Of a stretch of 22,449 nt of DNA, positions 7,963 to 16,524 are shown one piece after another. The notes beneath the pieces are model-generated. The model saw only the letters and a program-made list of their open reading frames with translations, searched no databases and was not told where the DNA came from. The translations under genes and the position numbers were made by a program. Origin of the DNA: a virus; IMG/VR virus record IMGVR_UViG_3300049893_001189, positions 1-22,449 of that record; one strand, 5' to 3'. Numbering within the stretch: position 1 is the first letter of the stretch; every line of letters starts with the position of its first letter.

Positions 7963-9165
7963 TTGAAGGTGCTGATGCTGGGCGATAGCCCGCTGATCTC
8001 TACCGGCTTCGGCCGGGTCCAGAAGCATTCGCTTGATGCGTTCCTTGAGCGTGGATGGGATGTGGCTTCGGTCACCGCCATGCAGTACGAGGAGCGCGAG
8101 ACCGATCTGCCGTTCAAGCAGTACGTCCCAGAGAAGCGGGACCAGATGGGCCTGTTCAAGGCCGTCGATGCGATCAAGGAGTTCCAGCCGGATGTCATCT
8201 TCTCGATGGGTGACCCGGGGACTGCGGCATCGCATGGCATCGTGATCCCGACCAGCATCCCGGCGTTCTTCTACGTCCCCGTCGAGGGTGAGCCCATCGT
8301 GCTCCCCGAGTGGCGCAACCTGCTGAGCAGCGTCCGCTGGATGTCCTGCACCAAGTACGGTGCCGAGATCGCCAAGCGTGACCTCGGCGTGGATGTCCCT
8401 TGGGTCTACCACGGTGTGGACACCGAGGCCTTCTACCCGTACACCGACACTCGTCGGGACACAATCCGGGAGAGCCTCGGCTGGAGCGACAAGTTCGTCG
8501 TCATGACCGTCGCCGCCAACGTCCGGCGCAAGCAGCACCCACGCCTCTTTGAGGCCCTGCGGGTGCTCAAGAACGACTTCAAGATGAAGGACATCATCCT
8601 GTACGACCACACGGTCCCGTTCCAGCAGTACTGGCTGGATGGCTGGGACCTGCCGGTCATCTCGCAGGCCTTCGGTCTCACTGACGACATCGTCTTCAAC
8701 CCGTTCATGACATCGTTCGGCAAGTCGATCCCTGACTCTGCCAAGAGCGATGCGCCGTCACTGGCTGACCTCTACAACGCGGCTGACCTGTTCGTCCTGC
8801 CGTCGCAGGTCGAGGGCTTCGGTCTGCCCATCGCGGAGGCTATGGCCTGCGGACTCCCGGTCGCCGTGACCGACTACGCTGCGGCGAAAGAGGTCGCCCG
8901 GCACGGACAGGGTGCCATGATCCCGGTCCATGACTGGGAGGTTCACAAGAGCGGCACGCTCTACGCCAACATCGACCCGCATGGTCTGGCCCAGTTGATC
9001 CGCTCGCTCCGCAACGACCCGAAGCGTCGTGCCCGGATGCGGCAGGCAGGTATCGAGGCGACTCCGCTGTTCTCATGGGATGCCTACAAGGAGATGCTCG
9101 TTGGCCAGATCACGGACTGCTATGAGGCGGGTCCGGCTCAAGACCTTCCGCAAGCAGAAGGATAG
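7963..9165 (+). CDS. GT4-type glycosyltransferase in the head operon
   Basis: This 400-aa enzyme has the GT-B two-domain layout. The N-terminal Rossmann half begins MKVLMLGDSPLISTGFGRV (acceptor side). The C-terminal half carries the nucleotide-sugar site with the EX7E motif E284-GFGLPIA-E292, followed by AMACGLPVAVTDYAAAKEV, and a helical end. This is typical of retaining family-4 glycosyltransferases; donor and acceptor cannot be read from sequence. The start is TTG 7963 with GAGAGGAG at 7947-7954, 8 nt upstream. It sits between capsid and connector genes in the same orientation, so a virion protein is the likely acceptor; modification of host surface sugars or phage DNA are alternatives. 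Codon use matches its neighbours, so it is not a recent insertion. Confidence 0.88.
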   Translation: MKVLMLGDSPLISTGFGRVQKHSLDAFLERGWDVASVTAMQYEERETDLPFKQYVPEKRDQMGLFKAVDAIKEFQPDVIFSMGDPGTAASHGIVIPTSIPAFFYVPVEGEPIVLPEWRNLLSSVRWMSCTKYGAEIAKRDLGVDVPWVYHGVDTEAFYPYTDTRRDTIRESLGWSDKFVVMTVAANVRRKQHPRLFEALRVLKNDFKMKDIILYDHTVPFQQYWLDGWDLPVISQAFGLTDDIVFNPFMTSFGKSIPDSAKSDAPSLADLYNAADLFVLPSQVEGFGLPIAEAMACGLPVAVTDYAAAKEVARHGQGAMIPVHDWEVHKSGTLYANIDPHGLAQLIRSLRNDPKRRARMRQAGIEATPLFSWDAYKEMLVGQITDCYEAGPAQDLPQAEG

Positions 9166-10937: not shown

Positions 10938-11891
10938 ATGACAGCCTCTCTTGGCTATTTCGGCTACGGAGTCGAGGCCACCGAGGGTACTGCGGTCGCA
11001 CCGACCAAGTTCCTGCCGGTCACCTCGGTGTCGTTCGATGATACGAACGACTACATTCTCCCTGAGCAGATCAGGGGGAGTCGCGACTTCAGCATCGCGA
11101 TGGCGGCTCCGTACAACGTGGCAGGCACGTTCGATCTGGAACTCGTTCCGCTCGACATCGCCTACCTGCTCAAGTCCGCATTCTGCGCGACGGTCGCCAC
11201 GTCGGCCTACGCTGGCGGCGGCTACCAGCACGTCTTCACTCCCGCGAGTGAGGAGAAGGCCTTCTCTGCTGAGACCTCCGCTGGCAACAACATCCTCGTG
11301 ATGCGCTATGCCGGTTGCCGGGTCAACACGTTTGAGGTCAAGGCCGCCCATGGTGAGATCGTGACCGCGACGTTCGCCGTCGAGGGTTCGGACCGCACCA
11401 AGCAGGGCTCGCCTGCGACCCCGTCCTACGCAGCCTGCACGCCGTTCCACTTCTCGGGCGTCACGGTCAAGGCGAATGGCAACAACATCCTCGCCTACGT
11501 CAAGGAGTTCACCTTCGGTGTGAACAACAACCTTGAGCGGATCGGTACGCTCCGCAAGACTCGCGGCTGGCGGCGCATGGCACTCGGTGCCCGTGAGGTC
11601 ACCCTGTCCATGACGCTGGACTTCACCGACACCACGGAGTACGACCGCTTCCTCAATGAGACCTCGTTCGACGTTGATCTCATCATGGAGGCTGCCGTCG
11701 GCTCGATCACGGGCCTCGGCTCCAACGCTCCGACACTCCGCATCCAAATCCCGCAGGTCAAGTGGACGAAGGTCTCTGTGCCGCTCTCGGCCGGTGACCT
11801 GATCGAGCAGTCCTGCGAGGCGACGATCACGAAGGGCGCGGGGGCCATCTTCACGGCCACGCTCGTGAACAACGAGAACACCGTTCCCTGA
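10938..11891 (+). CDS. Major tail tube protein
   Basis: This 317-aa protein builds the tail tube by stacking rings around the tape measure. The opening SLGYFGYGVEATEGTAVAPTKFLPV (pattern G-Y-G-x-E-x-T-E-G-T-A-V-x-P) is characteristic of tail tube proteins of many siphophages. The rest is beta-rich with internally similar blocks (VNTFEVKAAHGEIVTATFAV and VKEFTFGVNNNLERI). AAGGAG at 10926-10931 is 6 nt before ATG. It follows the tail terminator and precedes the chaperone genes. A hairpin follows the stop. Confidence 0.87.
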   Translation: MTASLGYFGYGVEATEGTAVAPTKFLPVTSVSFDDTNDYILPEQIRGSRDFSIAMAAPYNVAGTFDLELVPLDIAYLLKSAFCATVATSAYAGGGYQHVFTPASEEKAFSAETSAGNNILVMRYAGCRVNTFEVKAAHGEIVTATFAVEGSDRTKQGSPATPSYAACTPFHFSGVTVKANGNNILAYVKEFTFGVNNNLERIGTLRKTRGWRRMALGAREVTLSMTLDFTDTTEYDRFLNETSFDVDLIMEAAVGSITGLGSNAPTLRIQIPQVKWTKVSVPLSAGDLIEQSCEATITKGAGAIFTATLVNNENTVP

Positions 11892-11962: not shown

Positions 11963-12304
11963 ATGGGTATCCTTCGACTCGCTTCCGACGCCACGACCAA
12001 GATCGACATGGGTGATGGCGACTTCATCGAGGTTCGCACTGATGTCAGCAAGCGGACCTTCAACGCCATTCTCGCGGCCATGCCGGATGTGCCGGACGGC
12101 GAGACCATCTCGCTGAGCCAGTCGCTTGACTTCGCCGCGAACCTCTTTGAGGTGTTCGTGGTCGGGTGGTCGCTCGACGTTCCTTGCACCAAGGAGTCGT
12201 ACTTCGACCTTTCGCGTGAGGCGGCCGATGCCATCGACCTTGCGGTGGCCAAGCACTTTGAGGGGCTGACCCCCAACAAGGACGAGGCCACGAAAAGCCC
12301 GTGA
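11963..12304 (+). CDS. Tail assembly chaperone, short form (G-like)
   Basis: This 113-aa, acidic protein lies between tail tube and tape measure, the place of the lambda G gene product that coats the tape measure during tail assembly. It starts GILRLASDATTKIDMGDGDFIEVRTDVSKRTF, and later has a helical AANLFEVFVVGWSLDV. ATG 11963 follows GAGGAGAGAG. The last codons are ACG AAA AGC CCG TGA (12290-12304). A second open frame overlaps this 3' end and has no early start codon of its own, so a longer product is expected from ribosomal frameshifting (see next entry). Confidence 0.82.
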   Translation: MGILRLASDATTKIDMGDGDFIEVRTDVSKRTFNAILAAMPDVPDGETISLSQSLDFAANLFEVFVVGWSLDVPCTKESYFDLSREAADAIDLAVAKHFEGLTPNKDEATKSP

Positions 12305-12593
12305 TCTAGCACGACAGAGCCTTCTGGGCTTCAACGTCCGAGGACTGAGGAAGAACTACCCAGAGTTGGCTAGATCATACGACCTGTACGACCAGTGCCG
12401 GACATTCCAGATGGTCACACAGGAGATGCCGGATGGGAAGAAGTCGAAGATCGTCTTCGTCCACTTCCCTACCGGGCTAGCACACCTGCCTGAGGCTGGC
12501 GGGATGCTGGATCAACCCTACAGACTCATGTTCCTCTTCGATCTGTTCCTTGAAGGTGAGCGATCAGCCTTCAACAAGCAGATTACATCGTAA
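12297..12593 (+). CDS. Tail assembly chaperone, frameshift extension (T-like)
   Basis: The frame one base ahead of the short chaperone is open from 12270 (after a TGA at 12267) to TAA 12591-12593 and contains no ATG, GTG or TTG before a TTG at 12366. Read as a +1 shift at AAA-A (12293-12296), the ribosome continues ...ATK|ARDLARQSLLGFNV and makes a 209-aa G-T fusion from 11963. The protein sequence is protein-like and codon use is normal throughout. The -1 frame hits TAG at 12307. In known tail chaperones the T part recruits tail tube subunits while G coats the tape measure. An independent start at TTG 12366 (75 aa, AGGAAG about 12 nt upstream) is the alternative. Confidence 0.72.
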   Translation, partial: ARDLARQSLLGFNVRGLRKNYPELARSYDLYDQCRTFQMVTQEMPDGKKSKIVFVHFPTGLAHLPEAGGMLDQPYRLMFLFDLFLEGERSAFNKQITS

Positions 12594-12598
12594 GGAGT

Positions 12599-12660
12599 GC
12601 CCGTTCGACTGCTAAATGACGACTAAGTTCGACTAAGTTAGCAGTTGAACGGGCTTTCTT
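12599..12660 (+). terminator. Strong terminator-like hairpin before the tape measure gene
   Basis: Arms 12599-12615 and 12638-12654 pair over 17 positions with one G-U, GC-rich at the base (GCCCGTTC/GAACGGGC), followed by TTTCTT. The 22-nt loop and adjoining arm hold two exact tandem copies of CGACTAAGTT (12620-12629, 12630-12639). It starts 6 nt after the chaperone stop and ends 25 nt before the tape measure ATG. This has the form of an intrinsic terminator, perhaps leaky, that would lower transcription of the tape measure and baseplate genes. Confidence 0.75.
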
Positions 12661-12678: not shown

Positions 12679-15600
12679 ATGGCACTGCCCGACATTCAGG
12701 TCAATGTCGTTGTCAATCTCAAGGGCAACGAGAAGATCGTCGAACTGAATAAGTTGCTCGATAGCCTGATTACAAGGCAGCGCACACTCTCCAAGACCTC
12801 TCGGCAGGCTGCTGCGAGCCTCAAGGTGCAGGAGCGGGCCATCACGGCCAATGCCAAGGCCACCCGCAACTACACGTTGGCCCAGAAGGCACTCAACACG
12901 AGCGTTGGATCGGGCAACAAGAGCCTCCGGGCCTACGGGAACACCGCCAAGAGCCAGTACAAGGTGCTTGAGGGCATCGCACGCAAGGTGCTGAGCGTCC
13001 GCAAGGCCTTCAACTCGTCCATCGTGACCCTCCAGAGGATGCAGGCGGCCTACCAGAAGGCCGATGTGACCATCAAGGGCTTCTTCAACCGGCTCCAGCA
13101 CGCCGAGAAGCAGATGGACGCCCTCTTCCGTGCCTCCTATCGCCTGACCATGACCGGCCAGCGCATGATGGAGTGGGCGCAGATGGTTATGGGCGCCTTC
13201 GTGAACGTCAGTGAGGCGTGGGCCGAGTACGAGTTCATGCTGAACCGCGCTGCGGGCGCCCTGCGGCTGTTCAAGGGCGATAGCAAGGACGCTGCAGGCC
13301 TCTACAACGCCCTCAACGACGCCATCCTGACCGCTGGCGAGTCTCTGGCCCTGTTCCCTGCCGAGGAAGTGGCCAAGGCGACCTACTACTGGGCATCCAC
13401 CACCGGCCAGCAGATCACGAACCTCCGGGACATCGAGAAGTTGATGGGCGCGGTCAACCCGCTCATGAAGGCCGCCGCCATGACCCAGACCGACTACGAG
13501 TCGGTCATCAAGGGCACCTACTCGATCCTCGTCCAGTACGGCAGGAGCATCGCCGACGTTGAGGACGTGGCCAGCAAACTGTTCCAGACCACGCAGCGCA
13601 CCGCACTTGAGTTCAACGACCTGATCTCGTCGTTCAAGATGGTCGGTCCGCTCGCATCGAGCATGGGCGTGTCGTTTGAGGACGTGGCCCAGTTGCTCGG
13701 CCAGTTGGGCGATGCCGGTATCCGGGGAACGATGGCCGGTCGCGCTCTGCGCCAGACCTTCATCAAGTTGGTGCGTCCGACGGCCAAGGCACGCGAGGAA
13801 CTCGACGCCCTCTTCGGCGACAAGTACGGCAAGACCTTCTCCGAGGCCATCTTCCCCAAGGGCGAGTTCATCGGCACGACCAAGTACATCGAGATGCTCG
13901 GTGCTGCCCTCAAGGACATGACGACCGAGCAGAAGGGGGCGATCCTCGCCACCATCACCACGGCCAACGAGTTGCCGGTCATGACGGCCCTCATCGACAA
14001 CCAGATCAAGGTGCTCAAGGGCGACGTGACGGCGTGGGACAACGCCAAGACCGCGCTCGGTGAGTACGGCTCGGCCGTCGAGGACTTCAACAAGTCGTGG
14101 GGCATCCTCGCCGGTTCGTGGAAGGGCCTGACCTCGCAGATCGAGCGTGGCATCGAGGCCATCCGCATCCGGCTGGGCAAGGTGCTCGCGGAGGCCCTGA
14201 CCCCTGCGGTCGAGAAGGCCAAGGTCTTCCTCCGGGCCATCGAGGAGTGGATCGAGAAGAACCCTGAGATCATCTCGTTCATGATGAAGATCGCTGGTGC
14301 GGTCGCTGCCTTCTCTGCCATCGGTGGCGCAGTGCTCGCGACGACCGGCGCCATCGCTGGCCTGTTCGCGGCGTTCAAGTCCTTCGCCTACGCTCTGGCC
14401 CCGGCCGTCGCGCAGTTGGCGATCCTCGCTGCTGGCTTCTACGCCTTCATCACGGCCCTCAAGCGCAACTGGAACTACATCGTCCGCACCGTGACGCCGT
14501 CCCTCAAGCGTCTGCAGCAGGCTCTGGGCCTGACGGGCGAGGGCATGGACGGCATGAAGAACGCTGCCCAGCAGTTGTTCCAGCGGCTCCAGCCGATTTT
14601 CAACACCATCGTCCGCACGCTCGCCGACGTGACCGCTGCGGTCCTCGACTTCATCGCCGCCATCGCTGAGACCAAGTGGGCTGCCGACCTGCTCTTCGGC
14701 TTCGCCAAGGCCTTCGCGCTCGCGTTCGTTGCCAAGAAGGTGCTCATCATCGTCGGTCTGGCGAAGGCCTTCACGATCCTGCGGAAGGCCATCATGCTCC
14801 TCGGCCCGACCATGAGCGTGACTGCGACTGCTGCTCGTGGGCTCCGCGCTGCTCTGTCTGCGCTGATGAAGGTCGGCCCGATGCTGCTGGCGTCCGCTGC
14901 CATCATGGCTGCCGAGGCCATCGCGAGCATGGCCGACTCCGCTGGCATCCACATCCCCATCATCTCCGACCTGTTCGGTGAGGCTGGCGACTCTGCTCAG
15001 GATGCGGCCAACAAGGTGCGCGACTTCTACGACTCGCTTGAGTCCGGGAAGAAGAGCGCCGCGCTGCGTGCCGCGATCCTGCAGGACTCCGGGCTGCAGA
15101 GTGCGCTCAATCAGGCGCGGATGAACGCCTCGCCGAAGACCGCAACGAGCGCAATCACCGGCAAGCAGGAGACAATCTACCCGAGCCAGCAGGCCATCGA
15201 CGCCTACAAGACCCTCACGGATCAGGCCACGGCCGCCGAGGACAGGGTCATCTCCTCGCTGCAGCGTGTCGCCGACTACTACGGCACGTCCTACGACGAC
15301 GTGGTGGACACGACGCTCAAGTTCGTCAACAAGTACGGCATGAACATCCAGTCGGCCACGCGCATGACCGAGGAGTTCTTCAAGGCCACCGACGGTGGTG
15401 CCAACCTTGTGCCGAAGTCCATTGACGAGATGTGGAAGGCAGTCATGGACCTTGGTCTGAACTACAAGTTCAGCAAGGACGACCTGCAGAAACTCATGAT
15501 CCCGAAGGAGATGCTCGACCAGTACGCCCTTGAGCAGAAGGCCATGGCCGAGATCGCTCGCGCCAAGGCGCTCAAGGATGCTGGCAACACGGCTGATGCC

Positions 15601-16524
15601 TACAAAATCCTCGCCCCGATGAAGGGTGCGATGAGCGGCATGAGCCTCGACGTGGAGCAGGCCTTCAACTCGGTCTTCGACTCCATCCCGGTGGCGATCC
15701 AAGAGTCTGTTGACGAGGCCACTGCCGTCGCCGAGCAGGCTCCCTCCGACATCTACAACGCTTTCGTGACTGGCCTCAACTCACTTGGCGACATCGGCAA
15801 GGAGTGGAAGGGCCTCAAGAAGAACAAGAACCTCAACAAGACCCCGCGCCAGATTGTCAACGACATCATGGGCCAGTTCACCGATCCCAAGAGCCCGCTC
15901 AATCAGGCCCTCAACTCCAAGGCCCCTGCCCTCGTGGCATGGGGTGAGATGAAGGCCGCTGAGATGCAGGGCACCCTGATGACCACGCTCGGCGACTGGA
16001 CAGGGCCTCAGGGAAAGGGCGAGGGCAAGAACGCTGGCAAAGGCAAGGGGGACGTGCAGTCGCTGTTCAAGAAGTGGCTGCTCCCCGACGGCAAGAACGC
16101 CCTCAAGTTCAACGAACTGGAAGGCCCCGTGCAGGCGGCCATGATGGATGTCTACACGGGCGTGTGGGGCAACCTGCAGACGGCCAAGCCGACCGTGCCC
16201 GAAGGCTCCAAGACCGGCCACCCGGTCACCGACAAGATGATCTATGACCTGAGTCAGGCATGGTCGCCGTTCAAGTCTGTCCTCACGTCCGAGGTGCAGA
16301 CCAACGTCAACGAGCCCATCAACGACCTCTTCGGTTCCAACTTCACGTTCAAGGGCGGCAAGTTGACCGTCAACGCCACCGCCACCAAGAACGTCAACTT
16401 CAACCTCAGGATCACTGGGGGCACCAACCCCAACACCAACGCAGGTGCCGTTCGCTCCTCGCTGAACAACTCCAACTTCTCTGGAGCCATCACGCAGGCG
16501 GCGACTCAGGGCATCCTCCCCTAA
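12679..16524 (+). CDS. Tail tape measure protein
   Basis: This 1281-aa protein, the second largest gene here, sets tail length and is ejected with the DNA. Residues about 20-150 are helical/coiled-coil. Residues about 230-370 resemble the TP901-type tape measure core (MGAVNPLMKAAAMTQTDYES, FNDLISSFKMVGPLASSMG, GIRGTMAGRALRQTFIKLV). Hydrophobic, membrane-like stretches lie at about 530-597, 666-714 and 730-760, as expected for a protein that helps DNA cross the membrane. The C-terminal 500 residues are mixed, with a Gly/Lys-rich linker near 1110-1130. ATG 12679 has AGGTGA 6 nt upstream. At about 0.15 nm per residue an unprocessed protein would imply a tail near 190 nm. Confidence 0.93.
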   Translation: MALPDIQVNVVVNLKGNEKIVELNKLLDSLITRQRTLSKTSRQAAASLKVQERAITANAKATRNYTLAQKALNTSVGSGNKSLRAYGNTAKSQYKVLEGIARKVLSVRKAFNSSIVTLQRMQAAYQKADVTIKGFFNRLQHAEKQMDALFRASYRLTMTGQRMMEWAQMVMGAFVNVSEAWAEYEFMLNRAAGALRLFKGDSKDAAGLYNALNDAILTAGESLALFPAEEVAKATYYWASTTGQQITNLRDIEKLMGAVNPLMKAAAMTQTDYESVIKGTYSILVQYGRSIADVEDVASKLFQTTQRTALEFNDLISSFKMVGPLASSMGVSFEDVAQLLGQLGDAGIRGTMAGRALRQTFIKLVRPTAKAREELDALFGDKYGKTFSEAIFPKGEFIGTTKYIEMLGAALKDMTTEQKGAILATITTANELPVMTALIDNQIKVLKGDVTAWDNAKTALGEYGSAVEDFNKSWGILAGSWKGLTSQIERGIEAIRIRLGKVLAEALTPAVEKAKVFLRAIEEWIEKNPEIISFMMKIAGAVAAFSAIGGAVLATTGAIAGLFAAFKSFAYALAPAVAQLAILAAGFYAFITALKRNWNYIVRTVTPSLKRLQQALGLTGEGMDGMKNAAQQLFQRLQPIFNTIVRTLADVTAAVLDFIAAIAETKWAADLLFGFAKAFALAFVAKKVLIIVGLAKAFTILRKAIMLLGPTMSVTATAARGLRAALSALMKVGPMLLASAAIMAAEAIASMADSAGIHIPIISDLFGEAGDSAQDAANKVRDFYDSLESGKKSAALRAAILQDSGLQSALNQARMNASPKTATSAITGKQETIYPSQQAIDAYKTLTDQATAAEDRVISSLQRVADYYGTSYDDVVDTTLKFVNKYGMNIQSATRMTEEFFKATDGGANLVPKSIDEMWKAVMDLGLNYKFSKDDLQKLMIPKEMLDQYALEQKAMAEIARAKALKDAGNTADAYKILAPMKGAMSGMSLDVEQAFNSVFDSIPVAIQESVDEATAVAEQAPSDIYNAFVTGLNSLGDIGKEWKGLKKNKNLNKTPRQIVNDIMGQFTDPKSPLNQALNSKAPALVAWGEMKAAEMQGTLMTTLGDWTGPQGKGEGKNAGKGKGDVQSLFKKWLLPDGKNALKFNELEGPVQAAMMDVYTGVWGNLQTAKPTVPEGSKTGHPVTDKMIYDLSQAWSPFKSVLTSEVQTNVNEPINDLFGSNFTFKGGKLTVNATATKNVNFNLRITGGTNPNTNAGAVRSSLNNSNFSGAITQAATQGILP

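Follow-up and report, generated by a model that had tools for sequence, protein, structure and literature searches.

Between the tail tube and tape measure genes of the virus studied here, a short gene is overlapped by a second reading frame that has no start codon near its opening, which raises the question of how ribosomes would enter this frame, and in which direction they would have to slip. The window, that is, the whole stretch of 22,449 nucleotides that was analyzed, a virus record of IMG/VR type, carries on its plus strand a tail tube gene at 10938..11891 (Pfam Phage_tube_2, E 1.7e-36; PHROG 290, E 1.4e-48), a gene G for a putative short tail assembly chaperone of 113 amino acids (11963..12304, stop TGA at 12302-12304) and a tape measure gene at 12679..16524, which matches PhageMin_Tail (E 1.6e-30) as well as numerous tape measure families in PHROG. 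The second frame, T, whose codons start at positions divisible by 3, opens at 12270 after a TGA (12267-12269) and ends with TAA at 12591-12593, and the first ATG, GTG or TTG within it is TTG 12366. The relation between the two frames can be read off directly: T lies +1, or equally -2, from G. An earlier note on this DNA had placed the end of G at 12304, described T as open from 12270 to 12593 without a start before TTG 12366, pointed out that a -1 shift would run into TAG 12307-12309 and proposed two slip sites, AAA-A at 12293-12296 and CCC-A at 12272-12275, and all of these positions proved to be correct. Further upstream, a glycosyltransferase gene (7963-9165; PHROG 2170, E 7e-28) precedes the neck and tail genes.

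The G/T locus (11963-12593) occupies the position of tail assembly chaperones, and it shows the architecture of a G/GT pair: two overlapping frames, the downstream one without its own start, and a conserved slip site. We consider it very probable, from comparison of sequences, that the pair encodes a chaperone G and, through a programmed +1 shift of the ribosome at AAA-A, an extended form GT; this arrangement probably arose from a -1 ancestor. If AAAA is read as one lysine, the GT fusion is open for 209 amino acids. Xu, Hendrix and Duda reportedly described in 2004 a conserved family of frameshifted tail assembly chaperones, including lambda gpG/gpGT, in which the shift is mostly -1 and, in Mu, -2. 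Like gpG/gpGT, the window pair would comprise a short chaperone plus a less abundant frameshift product with a C-terminal extension, encoded ahead of the tape measure gene. Unlike the lambda family, it would shift by +1 at AAA-A while relatives within its own family would shift by -1.

The resemblance of G itself to known chaperones was modest. Pfam Phage_TAC_4 was matched by 4 of the 17 G family members (best E 0.0009), with the window's G below the cut-off. Similarly, the G model (pLDDT 82) resembled 2ob9, the tail assembly chaperone of HK97, only weakly (Z 4.5 and rmsd 4.7 over 90 residues); several of its BFVD matches were named tail assembly chaperones. Since these sequence and fold matches are weak, the putative chaperone role of G is based mainly on gene order and frameshift architecture.

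We then compared the locus with its relatives. Profiles of T, G and the tube protein, run against IMG/VR, yielded about 47 distinct G/T junctions with homologues of the T domain and the same gene order; loci L073-L079, which matched just part of T, were left out. Of 33 representatives, 32 had the tube gene on the same contig as G, and the remaining contig was truncated. Eleven distinct junctions were of the +1 type and 36 of the -1 type, both within this one homologous family. The -1 relatives, unlike the window, show the tandem slippage motif X XXY YYZ: the site was G GGA AAR (AAG or AAA) in 33 of the 36 junctions, G GGA AAU in L064 and UCA AAA in L006 and L018. The last of these (L006 3990-4010; L018 3980-3995) leaves room for only one tRNA-Lys to slip back, on AAAA. 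The window does not belong to this class, given that its T lies in +1 and that TAG 12307-12309 blocks the -1 frame. Its putative slip site, AAA-AGC (12293..12298, plus strand), is instead shared with L003, L004, L020, L046, L091, L105, L106 and L094 and occurs as AAA-AGU in L005, so that AAA-AG[CT] is found in 10 of 11 +1 junctions; the eleventh member, L002, has GCC-UUU-CGA. In L094 (4024-4350), the G gene carries a separate internal frame break, and the junction is locally +1.

All +1 members are metagenome contigs. Isolate phages searched by tblastn gave no relative of T and just one weak match of G, and no relatives were found in GTDB genomes with the T and tube profiles. Nevertheless, an open frame in -1 relation was present at the position of T in three isolates, Xanthomonas phage DoCa5, Gordonia phage Demosthenes and Bacillus phage vB_BpsS-36, two of which were found through the tail tube protein and one through the G protein. 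The Demosthenes record annotates a joined tail assembly chaperone there.

To locate the point at which reading changes frame, we followed conservation across the junctions of the ten AAA-A members. The zero-frame lysine codon AAA of G is at 12293-12295, the +1 landing codon AAA is at 12294-12296, and the zero-frame A-site codon is AGC. Over the 10 codons upstream of AAA, the mean BLOSUM62 score was 1.39 in the G frame versus -0.4 in the T frame. In 7 of the 10 members, a stop interrupts the T frame in the ten codons ahead of the landing codon; in L046 it lies only two codons away. Over the 30 codons downstream, the relation is reversed, the T frame averaging 1.65 and the G frame, with its 19 stops, 0.11. 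Because conservation passes from the G to the T frame there, reading switches frame at or very near AAA-A and not at CCC-A. Indeed, of the two motifs that the earlier note had suggested comparing in relatives, AAAA was kept in ten +1 junctions; CCC-A was not conserved, and the stretch following it is conserved as G-frame protein only. The recurrence of the +1 phase together with AAA-AG[CT] in ten diverged contigs, with a T domain conserved from the landing codon onward, exceeds chance as judged from these alignments. Furthermore, a codon that re-pairs one base 3', as expected for a P-site slip, is retained among the +1 members: AAA-A in ten of them and UUU-C in L002.

The frame relation alone fits +1 and -2 equally, and T could in principle be reached by a -2 slip, likeliest at ACC-CCC (12269-12274), where tRNA-Pro on CCC would move back two bases and re-pair perfectly with CCC. 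Mu is a documented case of a -2 slip, and phage 9g a predicted one (PMC3498833, PMC4276943). However, the C run is missing from most other +1 members, conservation between it and AAA-A is confined to the G frame, and L046 has a T-frame stop between the two positions. Neither would a -2 slip at the conserved AAA-A be helpful, as it would place tRNA-Lys on CGA, CCA or similar codons and allow no re-pairing. A Mu-type mechanism therefore appears very unlikely.

The T domain (12294..12593, plus strand), read as the C-terminal part of GT, might also be a separate protein, translated from TTG 12366 or by re-initiation past the G stop, and a 75-amino-acid frame with this TTG start is indeed present. 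The conserved T sequence nevertheless begins 24 codons ahead of TTG 12366, and in L004 and L046 the T frame lacks any start codon between its opening and 25 codons beyond the landing codon. The predicted structure points the same way: in the T-domain model (pLDDT 90.6), helix 1 begins one residue past the landing lysine, and a start at TTG 12366 would cut away the first two predicted helices. When this fold was searched for, no match passed E 0.001 in BFVD or Z 3.0 in the PDB, which carries no weight either way. Together with the classical slippery heptamers of the -1 relatives, these observations leave little probability for unfused synthesis of T. The proposal of the earlier note, +1 frameshifting at AAA-A, is thus supported by ten homologous junctions in the same phase, which favor it over the alternatives of CCC-A, a shift by -2 and independent initiation of T.

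According to the mechanism that we propose, tRNA-Lys would occupy AAA 12293-12295 in the P site with AGC awaiting decoding in the A site. We infer both the slip and its efficiency: a minority of ribosomes would move one base forward, tRNA-Lys would re-pair perfectly with AAA 12294-12296, and reading would go on through GCC CGT GAT CTA into T. Ribosomes that do not slip would read AGC CCG TGA and terminate, giving G. In the -1 relatives, tRNA-Lys would move back on G GGA AAG, from AAG to the same T-frame AAA. Both types would thus converge on one T-frame AAA, from the 5' side in +1 members and from the 3' side in -1 members. The T-frame text of the junction is indeed alike across types, being GGG AAA GCC CGA GAC CTC in the -1 member L009 and CGA AAA GCC CGT GAT CTA in the window.

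AAA is rare among lysine codons in the main open reading frames of the window (8 of 344), and it accounts for 9 of 103 lysine codons in the tube, G and T genes of six +1 loci. A hungry or slow AGC codon following AAA had been suggested to favor the site. A slow, rare or stop codon in the A site is frequent at +1 P-site slips, although not obligatory. The suggestion was not supported, as by the phage's own codon usage AGC is common in the window's main open reading frames (99 of 430 serine codons). Moreover, because the T-frame alanine codon constrains most of AGC, the presence of AGC at the site is weaker evidence, and only AAAA is free.

We also searched for stimulators. A weak Shine-Dalgarno-like GAGG on the plus strand (12281..12288), about 5 nt upstream of the slip codon and with an anti-SD duplex of -5.9 kcal/mol, is a possible stimulator in the window. 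At this distance of about 5 bases, the element is strong in L004, moderate in L046, weaker in the window and absent in L005. Found in these three and weak or absent in other +1 members, it was rejected as a common cause. Downstream RNA folding of the +1 members gave z-scores from about +1.2 to -3.7 with no shared structure. Since neither the Shine-Dalgarno-like element nor the downstream folds are common to all +1 members, we claim no stimulator. The bacterial prfB gene (RF2) likewise uses a +1 P-site slip, at CUU-UGA, and this slip is stimulated by a Shine-Dalgarno-like element close upstream. Its A site is a stop codon, whereas that of the window is a sense codon, and the upstream element is not conserved in the window's family. 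Programmed +1 frameshifting is also known from a structural protein of a Listeria phage.

Mixed +1 and -1 relations among orthologues would be typical of transcriptional slippage, which could join the frames on the A run. In a large survey, direction was mixed among orthologues using such slippage and conserved among those using ribosomal frameshifting (PMC3711429). The sites reported there comprise more than 7 A or more than 8 T, however, while the runs here are A4, A3 or T3, and the G GGA AAR of the -1 types is a motif for tandem tRNA slippage. Transcriptional slippage is hence a still less probable explanation than a -2 shift or a separate T. Least probable of all is that the +1 phase reflects a faulty assembly, a sequencing error or gene decay, as might be suspected from the metagenomic origin of all members and the frame break in G of L094, given that ten diverged contigs from different samples share phase and site and that T is still conserved. 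This argument concerns the AAA-A class, L002 being a single contig.

The coexistence of both directions in one family, which goes beyond the earlier note, led us to consider how the +1 type arose. As most relatives use -1, +1 is probably a derived state. In a tree of concatenated G, T and tube proteins (midpoint root, with weak deep branches), the +1 rows fell in three places: the window with L003, L004 and L091; L020 with L005, L046, L105, L106 and L094; and L002. Three changes of direction were needed on this tree (bootstrap range, 3 to 4), and its most distant clade was -1 throughout. In a first tree, a single clade of all seven +1 rows including L002 was disfavored, at the level of AU p 0.021 only, and a single clade of the six AAA-AGY rows was not rejected (AU p 0.27). 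L006, a -1 member with UCAAAAG, joined the second +1 group in the tree (moderate support, 93/99), perhaps as a reversal or an intermediate. Because the +1 type sits in three places and L002 has a different site, UUU-CGA, these sequences indicate that the direction switched at least once, and probably two or three times.

As for the order of events, we infer that the +1 type probably arose from a -1 ancestor by a small insertion or deletion among the final codons of G, which would change the frame in which ribosomes arrive but leave T and its landing codon intact. In principle, a one-base deletion or a two-base insertion there, plus a G-to-A change, would be enough. We cautiously favor the broader view that frameshift direction is evolvable within one orthologous family, with a shared landing lysine and a small indel that turns -1 into +1 while keeping the fusion, and that this happened two or three independent times (once or twice for AAA-A and once for UUU-C).

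L002 apparently represents an independent route to a +1 system. UUU is rare in this locus, where the tube, G and T genes have a single UUU against 26 UUC. At L002 4250-4300, the residues KVAF, which belong to the T frame in -1 relatives, are encoded by the G frame, with the UUU-CGA of the putative +1 slip just after them. The shift from UUU to UUC would improve pairing with the usual tRNA-Phe anticodon, as in the model for influenza A PA-X (PMC3498833). The PA-X site, UCC-UUU-CGU, has the same P-site UUU-C slip and an arginine CGN codon in the A site as the GCC-UUU-CGA of L002, a class that had been predicted (PMC3498833). The genes are unrelated and L002 is a bacterial virus, so that the likeness is one of mechanism only.

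A +1 tail chaperone as such is of a kind already known. A +1 shift is likely in the tail frameshift of the haloarchaeal myovirus HSTV-2, and forward-shift chaperones in actinophage records were used as training data for PRFect; they share +1 with the window, and the passages on these shifts describe neither a conserved AAA-AGC nor a change of direction (PMC5009743, PMC8211752, PMC10274946). In SPP1, a +1 shift at a rare CCC beside a stop codon gives gp17.1*, the extended form of gp17.1, and the phage's own chaperone is predicted to use -1 (PMC6316719). This is, as in the window, a programmed +1 shift in a phage late gene, although in the tube protein and not in a chaperone. What is new is the change of direction in one family at a shared codon, of which we found no description in a literature search that had most subscription journals outside it. 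The direction of ribosomal frameshifting has been described as conserved among orthologues, and mixed directions have been read as indicating transcriptional slippage (PMC3711429). In contrast, our data suggest that the direction of a ribosomal slip can seemingly change in evolution. Both directions at a homologous codon within one family provide a natural series to test what decides direction.

Two further elements of the window deserve mention. A long hairpin with a T-rich tail (12595..12658, plus strand; dG -32.9) lies between T and the tape measure gene. Hairpins of unrelated sequence are found at the same place in L002-L006, L008, L013, L017, L048 and L094 (dG -26 to -43 kcal/mol), and the element is probably an intrinsic terminator or attenuator between the chaperone and tape measure genes. 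Near the start of the window, a complete tRNA-Lys(CTT) gene (92-166) adjoins a tyrosine integrase gene on the minus strand (237-1133), and a repeated cgataccgttt immediately follows the tRNA. This region may be a prophage attachment end, or the tRNA may be phage-borne.
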